A stretch of DNA of 23,234 nt from a virus. The stretch lies in IMG/VR virus record IMGVR_UViG_3300046005_000608, positions 1 to 23,234 of that record; one strand, written 5' to 3'. This document shows positions 1,410 to 6,899 of the stretch, one piece after another. The stretch's first letter is position 1; each line of letters begins with the position of its first letter. The translations under genes and the position numbers were made by a program. The notes beneath the pieces are model-generated. The model was not told where the DNA came from. It searched no databases and saw only the letters and a program-made list of their open reading frames with translations.

Positions 1410-2576
1410 ATGACTACCAATACCCTGACTTCCCTGATCCCCGATGTGTATGCCGCGCTTGATGTTGTCTCGCGTGAGCTTACCGGTTTCATCCCTGCCG
1501 TTACTGTTGACGCACAGGCCAATCGTGCTGCTGTCAACCAGTCCGTCCGTGTGCCGATTGTGCCTTCCAGCAACTCTATGGTCGACACCACTCCGGCGAT
1601 GGCGATCCCTGCTGAAGCTGACCAGACCATCGGTAACGCTGAAATCAAGATCACCAAGTCCAAGGCTGTGCCGTTCTCGTGGCAGGGCAATGAACAGGTC
1701 GGTCTGAACTCTGGCGTTGGCTATCTGAACATCCGCCAGAACCAGATTGCACAGGCCATGCGCACGCTGGTCAATGACATTGAAGCCGACCTCGGCAACC
1801 TTGCCATTACCGCCTCCCGCGCTGCCGGCACTGTGACCACAACTCCGTTTGCTTCGACTCTTGAAGGCGCGATGAATGCCCGCAAGATTCTGGTAGACAA
1901 CGGCGCTCCGACCTCTGACCTGCAACTGGTTGTCGATACCGCTGCTGGCGCCAAGCTGCGCACGCTGTTCGGTATTCAGACCACTCGCAGCAATGACCTT
2001 GCCCAACTGTCTGAACAGGGTACGCTGATTAACGCATCCGGCGTGAACATCCGCGAGTCTGCCCAGATTTATCAGGGCACTGCCGGCGCAATGGCTAACG
2101 CTACTTCGACCTCTGCTGCCTTCACTGTCGGCCAGACCGTGATCCCGCTGGCCACTGCTGGTACTGGCGTGGTTGCTGCTGGTGACGTGATTACCTTTGC
2201 CAACGATACCAACAAGTACGTTGTCGCATCGGCCACCTTCGCAGGTGCCAACCCGGCTTCTGGCGATTCCATCACGCTGGCCGCACCAGGCCTGCGCAAG
2301 GCACAGGGCGTCGCAACTCGCGCCATCACTGTGGAGGCTTCTGGTCCTCGCAATCTGGCATTCGCCCGCTCTGCTATCGTTCTGGCTACCCGTATGCCTG
2401 AGCGTCCGCAGGAAGGTGACCTCGCGCTGGATGTGATGGAAATCACTGACCCTCGCACTGGCCTGACCTTCGAGCTGGCAATCTACGGCGGCTATCGCAA
2501 GATCCGCTATGAGATTGCTCTGGCTTGGGGCGTCAAGAACATCAAGGCAGAACACTCCGCTTTGCTGCTCGGCTAA
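1410..2576 (+). CDS. Major capsid protein, P22 coat-like
   Basis: This 388-residue protein resembles the P22 gp5 coat family (HK97 fold). Its N-terminus TNTLTSLIPDVYAALDVVSR, the SVRVPI and AVPFSW segments and the C-terminal IYGGYRKIRYEIALAWGVK are typical of that group. A beta-rich, Ala/Thr/Val/Gly-rich stretch at about residues 225-300, including GDVITFANDTNKYVV, probably corresponds to the insertion domain that stabilises P22-like coat subunits. It forms the icosahedral shell. The gene lies 11 bases after the scaffold, with GAGG upstream of the start. Codon use is strongly biased to C-ending codons (ACC, CGC, AAC, AAG) compared with neighbours, as expected for the most abundant virion protein. 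A strong intrinsic terminator follows. Confidence 0.92.
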   Translation: MTTNTLTSLIPDVYAALDVVSRELTGFIPAVTVDAQANRAAVNQSVRVPIVPSSNSMVDTTPAMAIPAEADQTIGNAEIKITKSKAVPFSWQGNEQVGLNSGVGYLNIRQNQIAQAMRTLVNDIEADLGNLAITASRAAGTVTTTPFASTLEGAMNARKILVDNGAPTSDLQLVVDTAAGAKLRTLFGIQTTRSNDLAQLSEQGTLINASGVNIRESAQIYQGTAGAMANATSTSAAFTVGQTVIPLATAGTGVVAAGDVITFANDTNKYVVASATFAGANPASGDSITLAAPGLRKAQGVATRAITVEASGPRNLAFARSAIVLATRMPERPQEGDLALDVMEITDPRTGLTFELAIYGGYRKIRYEIALAWGVKNIKAEHSALLLG

Positions 2577-2638: not shown

Positions 2639-3139
2639 ATGGAGTTGATAGTTGAAACTGGCGCAATCGTTTCAGGCGCAAATACCTACGTCTCCCGCGC
2701 TGATGCTATCGCTTACGCTGCCGCTCGTGGCGTAACGCTCGCTGATACGACCGCCACTGATGTGATGATTATCAAGGCAGCGGACTATCTCGAATCCTTT
2801 CGCGCCCGGTATCGTGGCATTCTTGTCGACCGTGACCAACCGCTCGCATGGCCTCGCTATGACGCTGTGATCGAGGGCTATTCGTGGGCATCTGATGAAA
2901 TCCCGCGCCAGGTAATCAATGCGCAGCTTGCTACACTGATCGAACTGAACGCAGGCGATGACCCGTTCAACCCGACACCATTGCAGGGGCAGGTCACACA
3001 GAAGTCAGTGTCTGGCGCTGTTTCCGTGTCGTATGCTGCTGGCCCGTCTGGTAGCGTCAAGGTGAATAAGAACAGGGAATCACAGGCAATCATCAATCTG
3101 CTGCTGGCCCGTTCTGGCCTGTTTGCGGTGCGCGCCTGA
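2639..3139 (+). CDS. Head completion / head-tail adaptor, 'DnaT-like' family
   Basis: This 166-residue protein begins with a segment of the form ETGAIVSGANTYVSRADAIA. It continues with the helical core AADYLESFRARYRGILVDRDQPLAWPRYDA, quoted here only for its YRG and LAWPR landmarks. This is the family often labelled putative DnaT-like ssDNA-binding protein in phage annotation. Its constant position right after the coat gene, and its helical fold, point to the head adaptor that docks on the portal (gp6/gp15-like role). A replication role is unlikely here. It is the first gene after the capsid terminator, so it needs read-through or its own promoter. Its stop overlaps the next start as TGATG. 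Confidence 0.75.
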   Translation: MELIVETGAIVSGANTYVSRADAIAYAAARGVTLADTTATDVMIIKAADYLESFRARYRGILVDRDQPLAWPRYDAVIEGYSWASDEIPRQVINAQLATLIELNAGDDPFNPTPLQGQVTQKSVSGAVSVSYAAGPSGSVKVNKNRESQAIINLLLARSGLFAVRA

Positions 3140-4137
3140 TGGCTTTCTATGATGACATGCAAGATGTGGCAACCGACCTGCTGACAGAGTTTGGCCGGAC
3201 GCTGACGTTTCAGCGTGTCACGGATGTATTCGACACTATCACTGGCCGCAGCACTTCACGGACTACCGTGGAATACTCGCCGGTTGGCGTTGAAGTCCCA
3301 ATCCGCAATAACCTGATTGACGGGTCACGCATTCAGGTGGGCGACCGCTTCATTGTCATTGATGCCGCGACCGGCTACGTCCCTGACATGGCGGACCTGC
3401 TGGCCGATGCTGCTATTGTTGACGCTGCCTATCCGATGGATGCCAGTGCCATTGATGTGATTGCGGCTGGCTATGATGGCCGGCTCGCTCTGTCCAACAG
3501 CGACCAGACGGGAACGTATACCGTACAGGGCGGGCTGGCGCTGCAAGAGGAATACGCTTGCGGCTCGCTGACTGATGCAATTGACATGACCGCAGGCACT
3601 GATTCTGTCGAATGGGTTTACTCGCTGCCGACCATTACCGGCGGAACTGGCGACCCTGCTATTGTTGCAACTGGGAACATCGTAGAGAACCCATTACAGA
3701 TACCGGCTATGGTGCTGGTTCGAGTCATTGCCAAGGATAACGGCACGTTCTCGTACAACGTCGAGCGATCAGGTAGCGTGGTAGCATCGGCATCATGTAG
3801 CGCCACAGGCAGATTCACTATTAGCATGAATGGCACAGCAGGCACGTTCGCTGTGAAGCTGGATAACGTCCCTATCACGTTATCTAACAGCACGTTCACG
3901 CCACAGGATGCACTGCTGGCCGCTTCTGTAATCGAGTACGCTGGTGTATCCGGAACGTTCACAGGCGATACGGCAAGCATGACGCTAGTGTCTCAAGGCG
4001 ATGACCTGCTGTACGCAGACGGCACGACTGACATAGCCGGAAACGTGGTTCCAATGCCGAAGTGGTCAATCGTGGCCATTGAGCCAATCCGGCCAGCATC
4101 TACTCCGGTAGCCTACCGATTGCAGGTGCGCAAATGA
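3139..4137 (+). CDS. Head-tail connector (stopper-like) with a ~200-residue inserted domain
   Basis: The 332-residue product has two parts of a small connector separated by an insert. Residues 1-88 begin with an AFYDDM-DVATDLLTEFGR helix followed by beta strands ending in VGDRFIVIDA. Residues 292-332 contain VVPMPKWSIVAIEPIRPAST and a final YRLQVR strand. Together they would be a normal connector of about 129 residues that caps the head after packaging. The interior (about 89-291) is beta-rich and Ser/Thr/Gly-rich, with alternating strands such as TISMNGTAGTFAVKLDN; it looks like an Ig- or lectin-like decoration domain. GACCTGCTG occurs at both edges of the insert in the same frame. Its function is unknown; exposure at the neck is an inference. 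Translation is coupled to the upstream gene by TGATG and to the downstream gene by ATGA. Confidence 0.75.
   Translation: MAFYDDMQDVATDLLTEFGRTLTFQRVTDVFDTITGRSTSRTTVEYSPVGVEVPIRNNLIDGSRIQVGDRFIVIDAATGYVPDMADLLADAAIVDAAYPMDASAIDVIAAGYDGRLALSNSDQTGTYTVQGGLALQEEYACGSLTDAIDMTAGTDSVEWVYSLPTITGGTGDPAIVATGNIVENPLQIPAMVLVRVIAKDNGTFSYNVERSGSVVASASCSATGRFTISMNGTAGTFAVKLDNVPITLSNSTFTPQDALLAASVIEYAGVSGTFTGDTASMTLVSQGDDLLYADGTTDIAGNVVPMPKWSIVAIEPIRPASTPVAYRLQVRK
3394..3402 (+). repeat. Left copy of 9-bp direct repeat flanking the connector insert
   Basis: GACCTGCTG encodes Asp-Leu-Leu (residues 86-88 of the connector). The same nine bases recur at 4003-4011 in the same frame, 609 bases away (203 codons). 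Confidence 0.7.
4003..4011 (+). repeat. Right copy of 9-bp direct repeat flanking the connector insert
   Basis: GACCTGCTG encodes residues 289-291 of the connector. Loss of one copy plus the intervening DNA would keep the frame and leave a 129-residue protein. Confidence 0.7.
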
Positions 4138-4616
4138 GACTTGCAGATATTTACGCAGCACTGATGACTCGCGTTGAGTCTGGCGCGTTTAATCTGGCGA
4201 TATACGACCCGAACAGGGACAAGAATCCTACCGCAGGCCGCGAACATGCGCGCTTGTGGTTTATGCCATCGCAGTCCGATGCGGCATCTCTCGGCGGTAA
4301 CGGTCTGGAAATCCAGACGGGCATCCTGCAAATCGACCTGATGTACCCGACAAACAAGGGCATCGGTGACATTCTGATTAAGGCAGATGCTATCGCTCTG
4401 CACTTCCAGCGCGGGCAGTCACAGGATTACAACTCGCTGTGCGTATCGTTCACAGGCACGAATGTCACAGAGCCGCGTAATGAGGACGGATGGATGCGCT
4501 GTATCTGCTCGATTGGCTGGTATGCGCACATTGCGCGAAGTGTAGAGACACAACTCATATCCGAATCTGGCGCATTCCTGCTGACGGAATCCGGCCTGTT
4601 ACTGTCGAGAGAATGA
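4134..4616 (+). CDS. Tail terminator / minor tail protein (DUF4128-like)
   Basis: This 160-residue protein follows the connector by an ATGA overlap. The segments LQIDLMYPTNKGIGDILIKADAI (landmarks DLMYP and ADAI), LHFQRG and the late CSIGWYAHI strand match the small alpha/beta tail terminator family, which forms a ring where the tail joins the head. The order connector, terminator, neck protein, tube supports this. The last 20 residues carry two related units, SESGAFLL and TESGLLLS, a repeating tail seen in some phage structural proteins. It could act as an anchor or trimer tail for the fibre-like protein encoded next; that is inference. Confidence 0.7.
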   Translation: MRLADIYAALMTRVESGAFNLAIYDPNRDKNPTAGREHARLWFMPSQSDAASLGGNGLEIQTGILQIDLMYPTNKGIGDILIKADAIALHFQRGQSQDYNSLCVSFTGTNVTEPRNEDGWMRCICSIGWYAHIARSVETQLISESGAFLLTESGLLLSRE

Positions 4617-5075: not shown

Positions 5076-5555
5076 ATGCCTTTCTCGGCTGACCTTGAGG
5101 AGTTTGCTAAAGCGGCTAATGAGTCGCTGGATAAGACTGTGCGAATGGTCACGCTGGAACTATTCTCGTCAGTCATCAAGTCGACCCCAGTAGGTAATCC
5201 AGACCTGTGGGCAAGCCTGAATCCACAGACTGATATTGATACGCGAGAGACAACTAGGCGAGACGCGCCGGATGGATACGTTGGTGGGCGCGCTCGGGGT
5301 AACTGGCAGACGACTACGATGATCCCAGCACAAGGCGTAATTGATGGCGTCCGCAGCGGGGAGTCCGCAGAGTCAGAGCTTGAATCAAGATGCGGCGGAT
5401 ATGGCGAGATCACATATCTAACTAATAACCTTCCGTACATCATGAGGCTTGAGGAAGGATGGTCTACACAGTCTCCGCCACAAGCAATGGTGCGGCGTAA
5501 TTTCAGGCGAATACGGGCCATGATAGCTAGGGCCGTTTCGAAGAATAAGGTATAA
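5076..5555 (+). CDS. HK97 gp10-like neck / tail completion protein
   Basis: The 159-residue product contains TPVGNPDLW, then YVGGRARGNWQ, then YLTNNLPYIMRLEEGWSTQ and a final MVRRNFRRI helix. These landmarks define the HK97 gp10-like/neck protein family (TPVDTG-type motif, GR-x-RxNW and NNLPYA-x-LE-x-G-x-S). The protein joins head completion proteins to the tail. It lies two bases after the decoration gene; the start has only a weak ribosome binding site, which suggests coupling. Its stop overlaps a TATAAT sequence that may belong to the tail tube promoter. Confidence 0.8.
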   Translation: MPFSADLEEFAKAANESLDKTVRMVTLELFSSVIKSTPVGNPDLWASLNPQTDIDTRETTRRDAPDGYVGGRARGNWQTTTMIPAQGVIDGVRSGESAESELESRCGGYGEITYLTNNLPYIMRLEEGWSTQSPPQAMVRRNFRRIRAMIARAVSKNKV

Positions 5556-5591: not shown

Positions 5592-6503
5592 ATGACTATC
5601 GCATCCGGCAGCCGGCACCGTCTCGCTGCAATCGCTGAAGTGACCTACGGCACGACCCCGGCCACTCCGGCGTTCACTACGCTGCGTCACAATTCCTGCA
5701 ATATCGGACTGAGTAAGGATGCTGTGGAGTCTGAAGAGATTCGCGGCGACCGCCAGATCACTTGCTTCCGTCATGGCAACAAGTCAGTCGGTGGCGACAT
5801 TGAAGGCGAACTGGTATACGGCGAATATGACGACCTGATTCAAGCGGCTCTCTGCGGCACATGGAATACCGATGTGCTGAAGGCTGGCACCACTCGTCGC
5901 TCGTTCACCATTGAGCGCACGTTCCAAGACATTACGCAGTTCGTCCGCTATACCGGCTGTGAAGTCAACAGCATGAACATTTCTCTGTCACCAAATAGCA
6001 TGGTGTCGGTGTCGTTCGGCTTTGTCGGCAAGGATCAGTCCATCGCACAGACGGCCATCGCAAGCTCTACCTATTCGGCACTGACCGATACTTGCCAGTT
6101 CGACAGCTTCACGGCAACGATTAACGAGGGCGGCTCTGCTATCGCTCTGGTGACTGAGGCTAACATCACGCTTGAGAACGGCATCGAGCCACAGTTTGTG
6201 GTTGGCTCTGCAACGACTCTCCGGCCTTCGATTGGCCGCAGCAACGTGACCGGCTCGATCACGGTTTACTTTGAAGATCAGGGGATGTTGACGAAGTTTC
6301 AGAACGAAACGGAATCCAGTCTGGACATTACGCTGACCGACCCGGACGGCAATACATTGCAGTTCGACATTCCAAAGCTGAAGTACACCAGCGGGCAGCC
6401 TGATGTAAGCGGCGAGGGTTCGGTAACTGTCAGCATGGACTTCCAAGCCATCTACGACAGTGTTGATGCCAGCAATATCGTGATTACGCGCAACCCCATC
6501 TAA
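5592..6503 (+). CDS. Major tail tube protein
   Basis: The 303-residue protein opens with ASGSRHRLAAIAEVTYGTTP, the typical N-terminus of the siphovirus tail tube family Phage_tube_2 (often 300-320 residues). It continues with beta-sheet segments and the conserved ELVYGEYDDLIQAALCG. The C-terminal half has LDITLTDPDGNTLQFDIPKL and a final VSMDFQAIYD strand, matching the tube subunit fold. It polymerises into the tail tube around the tape measure. GAGGG lies eight bases before the start, and codon use is of the same high-expression kind as the coat gene. It is followed by a GC hairpin and the chaperone genes. Confidence 0.88.
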   Translation: MTIASGSRHRLAAIAEVTYGTTPATPAFTTLRHNSCNIGLSKDAVESEEIRGDRQITCFRHGNKSVGGDIEGELVYGEYDDLIQAALCGTWNTDVLKAGTTRRSFTIERTFQDITQFVRYTGCEVNSMNISLSPNSMVSVSFGFVGKDQSIAQTAIASSTYSALTDTCQFDSFTATINEGGSAIALVTEANITLENGIEPQFVVGSATTLRPSIGRSNVTGSITVYFEDQGMLTKFQNETESSLDITLTDPDGNTLQFDIPKLKYTSGQPDVSGEGSVTVSMDFQAIYDSVDASNIVITRNPI

Positions 6504-6551: not shown

Positions 6552-6899
6552 ATGAAACTTGACGACCTGCTGACAGCACCGGCGCACGAAGAAGGCGCGG
6601 AAATGGAAGTGATCCACCCTGCTACTGGAGAGGCTACAGGCGTGTTCCTTCGCATTCGTGGCGTCGACTCGGCAACCTTCCGAGCAGCATCCATCGAGTT
6701 CAATCGCAAGCGGCTGGACAAGTCGAATGAGGATAAAGACATTGCGCTAGACCTGACTGTCGCAATTACTGCCGGCTGGCGCGGAATGGATGAGCCGTTC
6801 TCGCCTGAACTGGCACGCAAGCTGTATACGGATTCTCCGGCTATTCGCGCACAAGTCGACTCGTTCTTCACTGTCCGCAGAAATTTTACGAAGGGCTGA
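6552..6899 (+). CDS. Tail assembly chaperone, short form (lambda G-like)
   Basis: This is a 115-residue soluble protein with MKLDDLLTAP at the start and a central FLRIRGVDSATFRAASIEF segment, typical of small tail chaperones encoded between tube and tape measure. These proteins coat the tape measure before tube polymerisation. I chose ATG at 6552 over an in-frame GTG at 6546 because GGAG (6543-6546) is correctly spaced for the ATG. The last codons before the stop contain a slippery sequence, so a minority of ribosomes should continue in the -1 frame to make the long form. Confidence 0.8.
   Translation: MKLDDLLTAPAHEEGAEMEVIHPATGEATGVFLRIRGVDSATFRAASIEFNRKRLDKSNEDKDIALDLTVAITAGWRGMDEPFSPELARKLYTDSPAIRAQVDSFFTVRRNFTKG

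Follow-up and report, generated by a model that had tools for sequence, protein, structure and literature searches.

Results

A head-closure stopper with an additional segment

The window analysed here is a 23,234-base virus record from IMG/VR (IMGVR_UViG_3300046005_000608), and its left part is occupied by a siphophage virion module (Table 1). One gene of this module encodes a 332-residue product that is the head-closure stopper Hc1 of PHROG 161, and its position beside the adaptor, terminator, neck and tail tube genes is the one expected for this family. Stopper residues 1-88 match positions 1-90 of the 120-position PHROG 161 profile (E 2e-22), and the last 25 residues match positions 95-119 (E 2e-5). 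The two matches are in order, and nothing matches between them.

The adaptor gene upstream also matches the Pfam family DnaT_2, ‘putative DnaT-like ssDNA binding protein’ (E 1.6e-39). This name is probably misleading because the gene sits in the neck cluster.

Table 1. Virion genes of the window and features of the stopper gene
Feature	Position	Strand	Evidence or remark
Capsid protein	1410-2576		Virion module of the window
Head-tail adaptor Ad1	2639..3139	+	PHROG 477, E 3e-40
Stopper Hc1 with inserted domain, 332 aa	3139..4137	+	phrog_161, E 2e-22
Stopper core, N-terminal part, residues 1 to ~90	3139..3408	+	Aligned with short stoppers; pLDDT 77-91; 60.7% identity to L003
Third GACCTGCTG copy, stopper residues 13-15	3175..3183	+	Same gene and frame, Asp-Leu-Leu
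GACCTGCTG copy	3394..3402	+	Coincides with 5′ junction of insert
Inserted domain, residues ~91-308, ~218 aa, ~654 bp	~3409..4062	+	No counterpart in ~40 distinct stoppers
GACCTGCTG copy	4003..4011	+	Inside insert, 51 nt before core resumes
Stopper core, C-terminal part, residues 309-332	4063..4134	+	Homology resumes; pLDDT ~90; 86% identity to L003
Tail terminator	4134..4616	+	PHROG 179, E 2e-27
Fibre-like gene, 151 aa	4618-5073		Between tail terminator and Neck1
Tail completion/Neck1 protein	5076..5555	+	PHROG 169, E 4e-32
Tail tube protein	5592..6503	+	Pfam Phage_tube_2, E 2e-62

Short relatives carry the empty site

Stopper loci were fetched through capsid, tail tube and stopper searches, yielding 42 distinct stopper sequences. 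Complete, uninterrupted short forms of 114-143 residues account for 38 of these, and two others also lack the insert, one in L007, where a short form is joined to the following gene, and the other in L130, a partial sequence. The long form occurs in only two distinct stoppers, those of the window and of contig L003, and their extra segments sit at the same core position, about 92/96 of the profile. Another metagenome contributed L083, whose stopper is that of L003 with one base different. Among the relatives found, the long form is limited to the window and this one closely related virus population.

The stoppers of L002 and L004 have 114 residues and accompany capsid proteins 75% and 70% identical to that of the window, with the remaining neck genes distant from the window's. 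Of 398 genomes in the phylum to which a Hyphomicrobiales MAG belongs, 14 carry the stopper family, and all 14 match contiguously over 340-390 nt. The stopper gene of cultured Kagunavirus spans 360 bp and encodes 119 residues. In L007 (3992-4807), stopper and Neck1 share one 272-residue frame, which may be a fusion or a sequencing frameshift.

In the short relatives, connector homology jumps from residue ~88-91 of the window protein straight to Trp309 (nt 4063). The alignment of empty sites took in L124-L129, and the nearest short forms (L124, L127, L126 and L128) place the junctions at residues ~88-91 and 309. The empty site of L124 reads PVLTDKVLVGAEYWSIIDI, where the window has VPDMADLLADA, the insert and then MPKWSIVAI. 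Base composition gives no sign of a recent foreign origin for the insert, which has a GC content of 0.554 and a GC3 of 0.575 beside values of 0.561 and 0.659 for the core and a GC3 of 0.584 for the adaptor.

The predicted core is complete without the insert

AlphaFold predictions were made for the window stopper with 24 sequences and for the L003 insert alone with 2 sequences. The stopper core was modelled with pLDDT values of 77-92 overall, residues 1-90 scoring 77-91 and residues 310-332 about 90. Over most of the insert the values were about 30-40, rising to 60-68 around residues 201-230, and the L003 insert alone gave a mean pLDDT of 30 with strands only.

When residues 2-332 minus the low-confidence stretch were used for structural alignment, the core aligned to solved stoppers over ~94-110 residues with Z scores of 8.6-11.1 (phiCD508 11.1, T1 10.9, FCWL1 10.7, T4 gp14 9.7, SPP1 gp16 8.8, lambda gpFII 8.8 and phage 812 8.6). 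Foldseek alone ranked the same stoppers first, with E-values no better than 0.085. Because the core alone aligns to solved stoppers at confident pLDDT, the insert lies outside the confidently modelled stopper core.

A preliminary description of the locus had proposed that a domain is inserted in the connector, and the comparison with related connectors bears this out. Shorter forms without the domain were found in about 40 distinct relatives, all lacking it at the same point and with the core complete, which supports insertion of a domain of about 200 residues. The prediction agrees that the segment is not part of the connector core and yields no usable fold model for it. Likewise, the description of the insert as beta-rich is compatible with strands as the sole predicted elements, and the fold itself was not obtained at pLDDT values of about 30-40.

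The insert matched no family of Pfam, PHROGs or NCBIfam and no PDB sequence. Searches for Ig-like families (Big_2, I-set and FN3) gave no Pfam match below E 3, a missing profile match that does not exclude the fold. A match to a gelsolin nanobody (E 0.05) covers only 42 residues and was treated as chance. No homologues of the insert were found by tblastn in phage and plasmid collections, by profile in the 398 genomes (a search run without a positive control), or, beyond L003 and L083, in the fetched open reading frames and scans of viral contigs. A scan with the adaptor as query gave no matches, and one with the tape measure returned only L083 among close relatives.

The insert diverges faster than its surroundings

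Between the window and L003 the inserts are 23.5% identical, whereas the flanking core and the neighbouring virion proteins range from 57 to 91%. The two parts of the stopper core are 61% (N-terminal) and 86% (C-terminal) identical, and among the other proteins the tail tube reaches 91%, the product of the next gene 81%, the adaptor Ad1 75%, the capsid protein 73%, the terminator 64% and Neck1 57%. The global alignment of the two inserts scores better than all of 1000 shuffles (z 3.2), and its local score was reached by 13 of 1000. This modest evidence suggests that the two inserts are probably one fast-diverged domain rather than two unrelated ones. Relaxed constraint could be an alternative source of the fast divergence.

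Placement and possible role of the domain

In known phages the stopper assembles as a hexamer, flanked by the dodecameric adaptor on one side and the tail terminator on the other, and a hairpin in its channel serves as the gate (PMC12886913; PMC10721106; PMC11945409). The segments of T1 gp44 that face the adaptor and terminator are residues 1-17, 30-44 and 58-71, of which the first holds the adaptor and the other two form the hairpin (PMC11945409). The insert appears to fall later than these segments, in the beta-sandwich part, with the T1 equivalence taken from alignment ranges rather than coordinates. Known members of the family, including T1 gp44, lambda gpFII and SPP1 gp16, share with the window protein the profile on both sides of the insert, the core fold and the gene order, but they have 110-140 residues and no inserted domain.

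We propose that a normal stopper subunit gained an independent domain of ~218 residues within one turn, and that this domain was acquired by their shared ancestor before the lineages of the window and L003 parted. Six such subunits would form the usual gated ring below the adaptor. Since a channel of ~4 nm has no room for six domains of ~22 kDa, the natural reading is that they are displayed outward, standing as six knobs around the neck. The insertion site and the precedent of the phage 812 stopper make this a reasonable inference, and the domain is likely exposed on the outside of the neck. There the knobs would most probably touch the surface of the host or of the particle, and they may act as an accessory decoration that binds a surface, either the host envelope or a glycan. 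The whole explanation, a stopper with an inserted, outward, surface-binding accessory domain, seems to us evenly poised between right and wrong.

The direct precedent for an outward stopper domain is gp97 of Staphylococcus phage 812 (PDB 8qgr and 8qkh), in which a beta-barrel core carries an external beta-sandwich that is absent from the E217 and Pa193 homologues (PMC12886913). Phage 812 is a myophage of another lineage, and its extra domain is a beta-sandwich whereas only strands are predicted here. A stopper with an external domain is therefore already known from phage 812, and the present case would be a further variant of this type. On the adaptor of roseophage R4C an accessory beta domain likewise decorates the outer neck side of a connector ring (PMC10276861). 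That domain is Ig-like and belongs to the dodecameric adaptor, not to the stopper, and the window insert has no Ig family match.

The main competing account of the domain's role is that it is an accessory that strengthens the neck or contacts the capsid, clamping the stopper to the adaptor, terminator or capsid instead of binding a surface. This is a tentative reading, somewhat less probable than the one just given. Its models are the peripheral Ig-like attachment domain of the R4C adaptor, which was assigned to local stability and not to adsorption (PMC10276861), and the neck decoration proteins of phage 812, which were proposed to reinforce joints (PMC12886913). However, an identity of 23.5% beside partners at 57-91% exceeds what would be expected for a domain held by contacts, and most relatives manage without it. 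Surface binding would explain why the insert diverges far more than everything around it, so that the fast divergence leans towards binding over strengthening, as an argument rather than a test.

An adhesin role of the surface-binding domain is possible. Binding modules have been added to structural proteins of 936-group lactococcal phages in some members of the group only, with carbohydrate-binding modules in the neck passage structure, the tail protein and the ‘evolved’ Dit, the last as an internal insertion (PMC6669499). The neck passage structure is a collar protein in its own right, and binding was assayed in those phages whereas here it is a hypothesis. The strongest form of the proposal, in which the stopper ring has turned into a hypervariable adhesin whose six beta domains on the neck, of a kind not described before, bind the host and are exchanged or diversify faster than neighbouring virion parts, is doubtful and ranks slightly below neck strengthening.

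In either role, a compact, essential neck protein accommodates, within a single defined turn, an insert nearly double its size. The empty site can be seen in relatives, and the rest of the virion changes much more slowly than the insert. Provided that the domain is external, the stopper would offer a natural docking point and would be one more siphophage structure to bear variable surface modules.

Origin of the segment

Gain of the domain has to be weighed against an ancestral long stopper, from which the short forms would have lost it. The segment would then be an intrinsic part of the connector in this group. In favour of this, the closest lineage sampled has the segment in both its members. 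Against it, the short form prevails across the family and in cultured phages such as Kagunavirus, solved stoppers with the same core are short, and the core model is complete without the segment. Taxon sampling already disfavours an ancestral long form, which we consider improbable.

A self-removing element (an intein) or an assembly error would also interrupt a conserved, essential protein in frame, but such an origin outside the virion protein is very improbable, given that the segment ends ...VVPMPK before Trp309 with no terminal His-Asn followed by Cys, Ser or Thr, that it has no match to endonuclease families or Rfam, and that L003 and L083, contigs of two other metagenome datasets, share the arrangement. 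On these junction residues, the Rfam search and the two contigs, we rejected intein, intron and assembly artefact.

The preliminary description had proposed that the insertion arose by recombination at a 9-bp direct repeat, one copy of which stands at each end. The copies exist as described: GACCTGCTG stands at 3394-3402 and 4003-4011, 609 nt apart, and both encode Asp-Leu-Leu in the frame of the 332-residue protein. The 5′ copy lies at the true junction, but the 3′ copy stops 51 nt short of the other end, within the insert. The proposed join of residues 1-88 to 292-332 would accordingly retain 17 residues to which nothing in relatives corresponds, and this part of the proposal falls.

The third copy of GACCTGCTG in the stopper gene had gone unmentioned, and a different virion gene has a fourth at 6564. 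Asp-Leu-Leu occurs four times in the virion genes checked, each time spelled GACCTGCTG. Simulated genes that kept the stopper protein and resampled synonymous codons from the phage's own usage contained at least one in-frame repeated 9-mer pair in 91% of cases, and the real gene contains 10 pairs. A longer exact repeat of ten bases, CTGCTGGCCG at 3397 and 3913, spans most of the insert as well. L003 has no repeat at either end of its insert, the corresponding sites being Asp-Arg-Leu and Phe-Glu-Arg, and in protein alignments the short forms recovered lack Asp-Leu-Leu at the junction.

Because of the third copy, the codon preference, the misplaced 3′ boundary and the lack of a repeat in L003, the repeat is uninformative about how the domain entered. 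Judged from these comparisons, the pair is a coincidence of codon usage and not an insertion scar. Two in-frame copies with one at a junction are what had made repeat-mediated insertion attractive, and we now regard it as highly improbable; the proposed gain of the domain would be unrelated to the repeat. More generally, where codon usage is biased, a short in-frame repeat in a gene is weak evidence that an insertion left a scar.

Other differences among the neck genes

Other neck genes also differ between the window and L003. About 30 residues of Neck1 around NPDLWASLNPQTDIDTRETTRRDAPDGYVG are missing from L003, as is a C-terminal extension of 23 residues in the tail terminator (4545-4613), which reads ETQLISESGAFLLTESGLLLSRE, contains a repeated ESG-x-LL motif and lies directly 5′ of the fibre-like gene. 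The product of the fibre-like gene matches C-terminal domains of minor tail and tail-fibre proteins (phrog_3285, E 6e-13) as well as a Geobacillus phage tail fibre (E 3e-6). This gene is absent in L003 and L083, where Neck1 directly follows the terminator, and it is possibly a neck fibre gained in the window's lineage.
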